Assembly: GCF_000620465.1 (NCBI RefSeq)
Contig: NZ_KK211140.1
Location: 437,964-501,963, forward strand
Direction: 5' to 3'
DNA: 64,000 bases
From: Ralstonia sp. UNC404CL21Col
Lineage (GTDB): Bacteria; Pseudomonadota; Gammaproteobacteria; Burkholderiales; Burkholderiaceae
The notes beneath the pieces are model-generated. The model was not told the DNA's origin, searched no databases, and saw only the letters and a list, made by a program, of their open reading frames with translations. Both the position numbers and the translations under genes were made by a program. Shown here in pieces: positions 27,423 through 30,307 of the stretch (positions within the stretch are counted from its first letter, which is position 1; every line of letters begins with the position of its first letter).

Positions 27423-27470
27423 AGCCGGTTTGGATTGCAAGTCCTTTTTCCCATTTTTGGGGGAGTGAGC

Positions 27471-30113
27471 GTGCCCATGGTGAAGGTGAAGACCTCCGCG
27501 AAGGCCGGTTCCAAGGCCAGTCCTGCTTCTGATTCTGCCAAGCGATCCTCATCGGCGCGCGGCTCGGGAGGAGGAAAGCCACCAGCGGGAACGGCGAAAG
27601 TCGCGAATGGTCGGACCCATGTAGGGCAGGCGGGATCGACAGGAGTGAAGGCCACTGCGCCGGCAAAGACGGGGAAAACCCAGCCGCGCCAGACCGCCGA
27701 TATCACCGTCACCGCCAAGACTGTCAAACCGACAGCGCGCACAAAGGGCGCGATCCAATCTTCAACCTCAGGCAAGGTCTCGACGTCGATGAGCACGAGC
27801 GCCAGACCTGGCGGCACAGCCGCTTCCGTCGCACTCAAGGGCAAGACAACCACCGTGGCGAAATCGAAAGTTACCGAAGTCGAGAGCAAGCAGACCACTG
27901 CCAGCGCAAGCGCAACCAAGACGGGTACCGCTCGTACCAGCACCGCAGCCAAGCCAGCCAAGGCAACCGCGGAAGACACCAAGCGCACCGCCCAGGCAGG
28001 GGCCACCCCCACAACTCCTCCCGCGCCCCGCGCCGAGGTCGCAGCCGAGCCCAAGAAGCGCGGCCGCAAGCCCAAGGCAGAGACGCAGGCAGACGATGAC
28101 AGCAGCACGGACGTGACTGAAGAATTTGACACCCCCGCCGCTCCGGCACCGAAAACCGAAAAGCTGAAGGCCCGTGACCGCAAGGCCAAGGAAAAAGCCC
28201 TGCTCAAGGAATTCGCTGCTTCGCAGCAAGGCGGTTCGGAAGAAGAGCTTGAGGCCCGCCGCCAGAAGCTCAAGGCGCTGATCAAGCTGGGCAAATCGCG
28301 CGGCTACCTGACCTACGCTGAAATCAACGACCACCTCCCCGACGACATGGTCGACGTGGAGTCGATGGAAACGTTGGTTGCCACGCTCAACGACATCGGC
28401 GTTGCCGTGTACGAGCAGGCTCCGGACGCCGAAACGCTGCTCCTGAACGACAACGCGCCTTCCGTGACCACGGAAGAAGAGGCTGAAGAAGAAGCCGAAG
28501 CCGCGCTGTCGACGGTTGACTCCGAATTTGGCCGTACGACTGACCCGGTCCGCATGTACATGCGTGAAATGGGCACGGTCGAGCTGCTCACGCGCGAAGG
28601 CGAAATCGAAATCGCCAAGCGCATCGAAGCCGGCCTGAAAGACATGGTCATGGCCATCTCGGCCTGCCCGGTCACCATTTCGGAAATCCTCGCCATGGGC
28701 GAGCGCGTGGCCAACGATGAGTCCAAGATCGACGAATTCATCGACGGCCTGATCGACCCGAACGCTGAAGCCGAGGCCGCTGCCGCCGCCGAGGAAGAAG
28801 AGGAGTTCGAGGAAGAAGACGCCGAAGAAGAGGGCGACGAAGAGGAAGACGAGGACGACGAAGGTGCCGGCGCTGCCGCAGCTTCGGCCCGTCAACTCGA
28901 AGAACTCAAGCAGGCTGCACTGGTCAAGTTTGGTGTGATCGGCGAGCAGTTCGACAAGATGCGCCGTGCGTTCGAGAAGGAAGGCTACAAGTCCAAGCCT
29001 TACGTGAAGGCGCAGGAAGCCATCCAGGCCGAACTGATGACGATCCGCTTTACGGCACGCAACGTCGAGCGTCTGTGCGACACGCTGCGCGGCCAGGTGG
29101 ACGAAGTGCGCAAGCTTGAGCGTGCCATCCTGAACATCGTGGTCGACAAGTGCGGCATGCCGCGCGGCGATTTCGTTGCGCGCTTCCCGGGCAACGAGAC
29201 GAACCTGAAGTGGATCGAGACCGTGGTGGCTGACGGCAAGCCGTACAGCACCATCGTCGAGCGTAACGTGCCGGCCGTCCACGAACTGCAGCAAAAGCTG
29301 ATCGACCTGCAGGCGCGCGTGGTGCTGCCGCTGACCGAGCTGAAGGACGTCAACCGCAAGATGTCGGAAGGCGAGCGCCGCGCCCGTGAGGCCAAGCGTG
29401 AGATGACCGAGGCCAACCTGCGTCTGGTGATCTCGATCGCCAAGAAGTACACGAACCGCGGTCTGCAGTTCCTCGACCTGATCCAGGAAGGCAACATTGG
29501 CCTGATGAAGGCGGTGGACAAGTTCGAATACCGTCGTGGCTACAAGTTCTCGACGTACGCCACGTGGTGGATCCGTCAGGCCATTACGCGTTCGATCGCC
29601 GACCAGGCGCGCACCATCCGTATTCCGGTGCACATGATCGAGACGATCAACAAGATGAACCGCATCTCGCGTCAGATCCTGCAGGAAACCGGCAACGAAC
29701 CGGATCCGGCAACGCTGGCCGAGAAGATGGAGATGCCGGAAGACAAGATCCGCAAGATCATGAAGATCGCGAAGGAGCCGATCTCCATGGAAACGCCGAT
29801 CGGTGACGACGACGATTCCCATCTGGGCGATTTCATCGAGGATACGAACACGCTGGCCCCGGCCGAAGCAGCGCTGCATGGCTCCATGCGCGGTGTGGTG
29901 AAGGACGTGCTCGATTCGCTGACGCCGCGCGAAGCCAAGGTGCTTCGCATGCGCTTCGGTATCGAAATGAGCACCGACCACACGCTGGAAGAAGTCGGTA
30001 AGCAGTTCGACGTGACCCGCGAGCGTATCCGTCAGATCGAGGCGAAGGCACTGCGCAAGCTGCGCCATCCGAGCCGCTCCGACAAGCTGAAGAGCTTCCT
30101 TGAGGGAAGCTGA
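27471..30113 (+). CDS. rpoD: Housekeeping RNA polymerase sigma factor RpoD (sigma70)
   Basis: Primary sigma factor directing RNA polymerase to -10/-35 promoters. At about 880 residues it is much longer than E. coli RpoD (613). Roughly 230 N-terminal residues are Lys/Ala/Thr/Ser-rich, then come region 1.1 ([20 protein letters not shown]), an acidic Glu/Asp non-conserved region with long E/D runs, regions 2.1-2.4 ([19 protein letters not shown]), region 3 and region 4.2 ([18 protein letters not shown]). GTG 27471 has GGAG five nucleotides upstream; ATG 27477 is the alternative. Ends with [11 protein letters not shown], the usual C-terminus. Confidence 0.95.
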
Positions 30114-30177
30114 TTCTAGCGAAGCAGGCGATTTTCCGAGTGGGCTTGCGCCCACTTTCGGGTAAAATCCCGCACCA

Positions 30178-30209
30178 GGCCCGGCCTAAGCGCCGGGTCT
30201 CTTTTTTTC
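30178..30209 (+). terminator. Intrinsic terminator after rpoD
   Basis: CCCGGC (30180-30185) pairs with GCCGGG (30192-30197) and is followed by TCTC and seven T residues. A second hairpin (30140-30155, GTGGGC/GCCCAC) lies just upstream without a T-run. A TAAAAT hexamer sits between the two hairpins at 30163-30168. Confidence 0.85.
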
Positions 30210-30219
30210 CTGTTTGACA

Positions 30220-30307
30220 GGGCCGGACGCCGTGCTGGTTGCAGGCAGCGGACTCATAATCCGCCTCCGAAAGGACACCGTGGGTTCGAATCCCACCCGG
30301 CCCACCA
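30220..30307 (+). tRNA. Unusual class II tRNA-like gene with CAU anticodon
   Basis: A full cloverleaf folds by hand: 7-bp acceptor (30220-30226 with 30297-30303), 3-bp D stem (30229-30231 with 30244-30246), 5-bp anticodon stem (30248-30252 with 30260-30264) and loop CTCATAA with anticodon CAT at 30255-30257, a 15-nt variable arm containing TCC-GAAA-GGA (30266-30275), 5-bp T stem with TTCGAAT loop, discriminator A and encoded CCA. CAU tRNAs (Met, initiator Met, Ile2) normally have short variable loops, and long arms belong to Leu, Ser and Tyr. Position 8 is A and position 14 is U, the reverse of the near-universal U8/A14. The amino acid cannot be assigned. It starts 11 nt after the rpoD terminator. 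Confidence 0.8.

Follow-up and report, generated by a model that had tools for sequence, protein, structure and literature searches.

To our knowledge, long variable arms in bacterial tRNAs are confined to those for leucine, serine, tyrosine, or selenocysteine. The usual tRNA core contains a U8-A14 pair, and initiator tRNAs are marked by a C1-A72 mismatch together with a GGG/CCC anticodon stem. For tRNA-Ile2, the determinants of Escherichia coli TilS are reported to be C4:G69 and C5:G68, and the Burkholderia enzyme is reported to need G3:C70 with the D loop helping; the same article gives C:G as pair 3:70 of Burkholderia cenocepacia tRNA-Met (PMC12514573). A tRNA-Ile2 A79G mutant of B. cenocepacia has been reported, with lysidine measured (PMC10128029), and group I introns in the tRNA-Ile2 of Burkholderia and Acidovorax are described in PMC8450103. 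Among leucine tRNAs, A15-U48 is listed for those of E. coli (PMC9976931). On the viral side, a jumbo phage of Ralstonia, RsoM2USA, is reported to encode one TilS and 44 tRNAs that together cover every amino acid but isoleucine (PMC8504454).

We analyzed a tRNA gene downstream of rpoD in a 64,000-nt stretch of a Ralstonia genome (the window). ARAGORN returned exactly the interval given in Table 1, with the anticodon CAT at nt 36 and the label Met, and called no second tRNA in the window. Rfam family RF00005 matched 30220-30304 with 46.7 bits, well above its gathering score (29). The RNAfold minimum-energy structure (−42.6 kcal/mol, z = −3.2, with 0 of 200 shuffles equally good) was a cloverleaf whose variable arm has 3 bp (nt 47-49 with 54-56) and a GAAA cap. 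These results bear out a sequence-only reading that had described a complete class II cloverleaf with a CAU anticodon and had proposed tRNA detection and covariance scoring as a check; the encoded CCA, the A73 discriminator, the 15-nt GAAA-capped variable region, and the D arm of 3 bp plus G13/A22 are all as it described them.

Table 1. Positions of the tRNA gene, its structural elements, and its upstream neighbors in the window
Feature	Position	Strand	Basis
rpoD reading frame, 892 aa as listed	27435..30113	+	Open reading frame list; conserved upstream neighbor
Terminator-like hairpin and T run, between rpoD and the tRNA	30177..30207	+	Consensus scan
Class II tRNA, CAU anticodon, 88 nt with CCA	30220..30307	+	ARAGORN, Rfam, RNAfold
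5′ acceptor strand with G3:C70, C4:G69, and C5:G68 (3′ strand 30297-30303)	30220..30226	+	Sequence
D arm GCCGTGCTGGTTGCAGGC, signature common to viral tRNAs	30229..30246	+	Signature scan, alignment
Anticodon loop CTCATAA, CAU at 30255-30257	30253..30259	+	Sequence
15-nt variable region; stem 30266-30268 with 30273-30275, GAAA loop	30265..30279	+	Folding and covariation

The core of this tRNA is atypical, with A8 and T14 alongside G15-C48. Its CAU lies within a 7-nt loop with A37 and A38 present, as is usual for tRNA-Ile2. The variable region is long and has its own stem, as in class II tRNAs and not as in the short loop of the usual tRNA-Ile2, and G1-C72 and the GCGGA/TCCGC anticodon stem set the molecule apart from initiators. 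We consider it very probable, on sequence grounds, that the gene encodes a class II tRNA-Ile2 that serves as its source genome's sole tRNA for AUA, a rare isoleucine codon. The gene occupies the Ile2 locus, is a one-for-one replacement in Ralstonia, keeps the acceptor pairs tied to TilS, and is kept as a structured RNA. The host TilS would convert C34 to lysidine, IleRS rather than MetRS or LeuRS would charge the tRNA, and AUA would be decoded as isoleucine. Since it would work like tRNA-Ile2 but lacks the short variable loop, we regard it as a variant and not a typical member. The sequence-only reading had left three options for the amino acid, namely an Ile2 variant reading AUA, a Leu-type tRNA, and a non-translating tRNA. 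The first is strongly favored by the locus, the exclusivity seen in Ralstonia, the identity elements, the viral tRNA sets, and some viral TilS neighbors, and the other two fare poorly, as set out below.

Sixteen Ralstonia genomes were compared at this locus. Ten keep the class II form, found 3′ of rpoD where the earlier reading had proposed looking for it. As for absence or decay in relatives, which that reading had named as telling against the gene, five genomes have a short-armed Ile2 at the same site (79 nt in four, 76 nt in one), and in one (G144, 90% complete) neither form was found, nor was rpoD. Each of the 15 genomes in which rpoD was found has exactly one CAU tRNA just 3′ of it. By the CAU-tRNA pattern, the two Ile2 forms occur together in none of the 16, elongator Met is present in all 16, and fMet in 15 (not G151); the class II gene of G113 was missed by this pattern and counted from other searches. 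The 88-nt sequence is identical in nine of the Ralstonia genomes. As a separate observation, the G113 copy (L083) is without encoded CCA, and the other nine Ralstonia class II copies have it.

The surroundings of the two forms can be aligned. The 5′ flank of the window gene matches all five short-armed Ralstonia at 81-87%, up to 6-12 nt before the tRNA; on the 3′ side, an 81% match begins some 126 nt past the tRNA in three of the five and is absent in the other two. With the 5′ flank shared and the 3′ flank partly so, the exchange involved a short segment that includes the tRNA. In relatives, the C-terminal RpoD motif was found 5′ of the tRNA. A consensus scan of the 5′ region gave no tRNA promoter. 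By eye, the stretch 30140-30207 contains a GTGGGC/GCCCAC hairpin, a TAAAAT box, and the terminator-like hairpin, with a similar arrangement in genomes of both tRNA types; these elements are a possible promoter and leader.

Looking across the wider family, near full-length matches were present in 38 of 200 genomes. All 30 family-search loci lie 95-326 nt downstream of rpoD, as do 27 of the 31 signature loci of named genomes among the matches listed; the four exceptions are Cupriavidus, two of them with less than 800 nt of upstream DNA to inspect. In a further 28 family genomes, picked mostly because they failed the short pattern or had many copies, a CAU tRNA stood on the rpoD stretch in 27 (not G006), being short-armed in 16, class II in 2 (G230 and G065), and intron-split by ARAGORN in 9. 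Across the Burkholderiaceae that we examined, one CAU tRNA, whether short-armed, intron-split, or class II, is almost always present at the site 3′ of rpoD. Some other family genomes have two or three short-armed Ile2-type genes. The class II form is not widespread in the order: a pattern with CCA matched only G000 (the source genome) and G020 among 399 Burkholderiales genomes, of which 13, these two included, belong to the same family.

Several further Ile2 forms were seen at or near this site. The intron-split genes (L387, L388, L390, L392, L394, L397, L398, L399, and L400) are interrupted in the anticodon loop, and an Rfam group I intron scored above threshold in L400 and below threshold, with E < 0.01, in seven of the other eight (not L397). 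Sub-threshold matches to the cspA thermoregulator RNA family also appeared near rpoD in L398 (121-422) and L399 (3120-3509). In Caballeronia (L079, 4158-4234, and similar genes), a short variable loop and an unusual D arm are combined with an acceptor and T arm near-identical to those of the class II form; this odd Ile2 is possibly a derivative or a recombinant. The B. cenocepacia locus L078 has a 79-nt CAU tRNA downstream of rpoD. We infer that this corresponds to the gene mutated in the published work, which used another strain, in which case A79 would be the last base (PMC10128029).

On an rpoD tree of 46 rows, the class II label needs eight changes, three of them forced by well-supported branches. 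The tRNA of Cupriavidus G230 is the same as that of the window over 88 nt, and the relatives around G230 are short-armed. Four other Cupriavidus genomes (G123, G138, G171, and G183) combine a 79-nt Ile2 at the rpoD site with class II copies at other positions, so the long form there is an accessory copy.

We then considered the tRNA set of the source genome (5.09 Mb in 11 contigs), in which RF00005 found 46 tRNAs. With a CAU anticodon it has the class II gene, a single elongator Met, and two fMet, and no gene for Ile-UAU was detected. The tRNAs found in the assembly do not include Tyr-GUA, Gly-UCC, or Thr-GGU, and one contig end has a Trp gene close by. Neither RF00005 in the source genome, nor the CAU-tRNA pattern, nor the 79-nt Ile2 as query revealed a concealed short-armed or intron-split Ile2 in class II Ralstonia; the 79-nt query gave only a weak match in the source genome, to a tRNA-Lys, and no second copy or half in class II genomes. 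The class II tRNA is the only AUA reader found in this assembly, which is without three tRNA genes, so the absence of another Ile2 rests mainly on the relatives.

Identity elements were compared next. The pairs G3:C70, C4:G69, and C5:G68 are all present in the window tRNA, and its viral relatives vary at these pairs; its D loop is unlike that of B. cenocepacia Ile2. The TilS of the source genome is intact at 472 aa, with the catalytic, middle, and C-terminal TilS domains matched. AUA makes up 11 of 787 isoleucine codons in 40 likely window genes. In 159 orthologous pairs with the short-armed genome G137, 32 AUA codons faced Ile at 20 places, Val at 6, Thr at 3, Met at 2, and Leu at 1, with 17 of the 32 comparisons setting AUA against AUA and so carrying little information; in 43 pairs with G138, three AUA codons faced Ile twice and Val once. 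In this small sample, the AUA context is isoleucine-like as far as aligned codons can indicate, with no leucine drift.

These data bear on a leucine identity, in which LeuRS would be recruited by the long arm and A73 and leucine would be inserted, at least in part, at AUA or AUG codons. Both features are indeed there, a nematode V-arm tRNA-Ile(UAU) is reported to be leucine-charged in vitro (PMC4300185), and 12 of the 15 distinct viral-contig signature sequences have A15-U48, the pair listed for E. coli tRNA-Leu (PMC9976931). The window tRNA itself, however, has G15-C48 where all five Leu tRNA kinds of the source genome have A15 and U48. The single leucine among 32 aligned places speaks against reassignment of AUA to leucine, and the nematode tRNAs are described as coexisting with a normal Ile tRNA, whereas none was found in class II Ralstonia. 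We therefore consider leucine identity very unlikely. A second elongator Met tRNA, or an unmodified CAU tRNA reading AUG, would agree with the anticodon and with the ARAGORN label. It is hard to credit when an elongator Met gene is already present in every one of the 16 Ralstonia genomes, when pair 3:70 is G:C as against the C:G of B. cenocepacia tRNA-Met (PMC12514573), and when the class II gene replaces Ile2 at the Ile2 locus, which would leave AUA without a reader.

Selection on the structure was examined in an alignment of 37 distinct 88-nt gapless sequences, 24 bacterial and 13 from viral contigs, one of the latter (L355) being a provirus with a bacterial-type tRNA. Rows were picked by D-arm signature and 88-nt length, with shorter or longer relatives left out, so the D arm is invariant there by construction. 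Changes on both sides were found for 18 of 24 pairs, 99.4% of cells pair, and 0 of 500 shuffles scored as high. All three variable-arm pairs covary, in 18, 18, and 13 sequences, full inversions included, and the Levitt pair covaries as G-C in 25 and A-U in 12; one T-stem pair fails in 5 of the 37 sequences. Judged by these substitutions, the variable arm is under selection and the RNA structure is maintained, which says nothing on the amino acid.

The class II CAU form has relatives well beyond bacterial chromosomes. A pattern scan for CAU tRNAs with a long variable region matched at least 119 stretches of named genomes and at least 120 of viral contigs, and ARAGORN called CAU tRNAs of 84 nt or more in at least 126 of those loci (at least 41 genome and at least 85 viral). 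The D arm of the window tRNA is present in at least 31 of the at least 41 genome loci, all Burkholderiaceae by title, and the other 10 among the matches listed come from varied organisms, archaea among them. Scanning for the D-arm signature yielded 31 viral stretches; at least 27 viral loci have a signature-bearing CAU tRNA, which is bacterial-type in four (L244, L302, L355, and L361). The closest phage-type form among the matches listed, on a contig of 337 kb, shares 92% identity with the window tRNA. Of 10 neighboring viral proteins, some match phage DNA polymerase, helicase, and virion families, and others match unknown families or nothing. Among named phages, blastn of one viral form gave no match at E 1e-5, and the window tRNA and another viral form (E up to 10) gave only partial matches among those listed, the annotated ones being other tRNAs.

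Large viral tRNA sets give context for the class II gene. One contig with 20 tRNAs (L335) carries, besides the class II CAU tRNA, Ile-GAU and two more CAU tRNAs, one of elongator type and one of initiator type; two others (L254 and L356) have Ile-GAU, one other CAU tRNA, and the class II one. From their composition, the class II CAU tRNA appears to fill the Ile2 slot in these three sets; L310 is ambiguous, with an Ile-UAU call beside the class II tRNA. Ten plasmid records also matched, nine from Cupriavidus at full length and one from Paraburkholderia in the 3′ part only. Two of the nine are the same pHG1 of Cupriavidus necator H16 and one is a 1.6-Mb replicon, and 7 of the 10 records are typed conjugative. 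Carriage of the class II form on Cupriavidus plasmids accompanies a normal Ile2.

Long arms also occur on phage tRNAs with other anticodons, annotated as Lys in XacN1 and Ruegeria phage V10 and as Asn in phiKZ, and the tRNAs listed for Gly, Thr, Asn, and Cys in XacN1 measure 86-91 nt. This suggests class II bodies on other isotypes in phages, with clear long arms in the Lys and Asn sequences. In addition, C1 with A72, an initiator-like mark, was seen in the long-armed CAU tRNAs of L179, L236, L245, L289, and L327 (four viral contigs and one Bradyrhizobium contig), so long-armed initiator-like tRNAs may exist.

We also searched 50 viral records whole for TilS. A TilS N-domain gene above the curated cut-off was found in 3 of the 30 records with a class II CAU tRNA, many of which are fragments, and in 0 of 20 comparison records, which are pattern hits without an ARAGORN long CAU call and not a clean control; the difference alone is not significant. 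TilS is thus not present in most viral records with this tRNA, and tblastn over 139 viral loci returned the same three. The TilS gene lies about 12 nt (L239), 36 nt (L299), or 0.9 kb (L269) from the tRNA, and L269 alone among the three has the D-arm type of the window. Relatives of this small viral TilS-like PP-loop protein (about 200 aa) are common in viral contigs, with 333 stretches encoding one in a single scan. Among the best 80 of these 333 (L473-L552), a CAU tRNA lies 40-56 nt away in five, four of them near-identical with a short-armed 74-nt CAU tRNA and one class II, and the inspected stretch is free of tRNAs in the remaining 75, so in most cases viral TilS has no neighboring tRNA. 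Proximity to CAU tRNAs as a general rule was rejected on this count. All five tRNAs within 300 nt of a viral TilS are CAU tRNAs.

How the gene moved can be approached through displaced copies of its 3′ part, beginning at about nt 31, in several genomes. In G309 the intact class II tRNA adjoins an integrase gene (PF00589, 103 bits), and about 35 kb away lies a 3′ tRNA fragment bearing a variable arm of the other sequence type. The same two ends recur in a provirus contig (L268, L355). No integrase was found in the G143 element, where the two frames tested match a porin and, weakly, a transposase motif. On the simplest reading, integration would have given the resident gene a new 3′ half and displaced the old one. 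Such replacement explains exchange of the arm between class II genes and not the first arrival of a whole gene. That the gene is a relic with no role in translation, retained solely because integrative elements attach there, would suit these displaced copies, the integrase in G309, and the Ralstonia copy without CCA, and is most improbable because no other AUA reader was found in those Ralstonia genomes and structure-preserving, compensatory changes are abundant throughout, with nine Ralstonia copies identical.

Returning to a translating class II tRNA-Ile2, transfer may have run from phage to host. The 12 phage-type sequences are the more diverse, differing by 16.8 positions on average, against 7.5 in 25 bacterial-type ones; the tree of 88 nt is too weak to settle the direction, with three phage tRNAs grouping with the bacterial ones and nine apart. 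A lineage of class II genes might circulate in phages and plasmids and have taken the place of the resident Ile2 on more than one occasion, and integrases with the tRNA as attachment site might swap the 3′ half, variable arm included. The balance is even on the full form of this history: a mobile, virus-associated class II tRNA-Ile2 lineage, in some phages beside a dedicated minimal TilS, would have repeatedly displaced the essential host Ile2 at rpoD (in Ralstonia, Paraburkholderia, Trinickia, and at least one Cupriavidus), leaving it as the sole tRNA to decode AUA, with integrases then exchanging the 3′ half and the arm.

No description of a class II Ile2 was found in the open-access literature searched. 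By textbook account, a long arm in bacteria marks the tRNAs for Leu, Ser, and Tyr, and here an essential single-copy tRNA for another amino acid appears long-armed; if true, the mobile-lineage reading breaks the rule that bacterial long arms belong to Leu, Ser, Tyr, or Sec. The long-armed form occurs in many soil bacteria, where ARAGORN names it Met, and phage tRNA sets described without Ile may, this suggests, hold mislabeled Ile2. It lets one ask, in a naturally occurring molecule, which features TilS, IleRS, MetRS, and LeuRS actually recognize, and it is a likely case of an essential part of translation exchanged among bacteria, plasmids, and phages.

Set beside known systems, the window tRNA shares with the tRNA-Ile2 of B. 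cenocepacia the locus downstream of rpoD, the CTCATAA loop, A73, and the pairs G3:C70, C4:G69, and C5:G68, and differs from it in the 15-nt structured arm, the D arm, and the A8/T14 core. The intron-split tRNA-Ile2 is likewise an odd Ile2 at the same rpoD site, but it is a short-armed body interrupted in the anticodon loop (PMC8450103). With Leu, Ser, and Tyr tRNAs the window tRNA has in common the long variable arm and, with Leu, A73 and a 3-bp D stem with G13/A22; unlike them, it has CAU, C4:G69/C5:G68, and G15-C48 in place of the A15-U48 of the genome's Leu tRNAs. The phage class II tRNAs of XacN1, Ruegeria phage V10, and phiKZ also place a long arm on an isotype normally without one, though the Lys and Asn forms have other anticodons and D arms. 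The nematode V-arm tRNA-Ile(UAU) similarly joins an Ile anticodon to a class II body, but as described it is eukaryotic, extra to a normal Ile tRNA, and charged with leucine in vitro (PMC4300185), whereas the window form is the sole one in Ralstonia and would depend on TilS.
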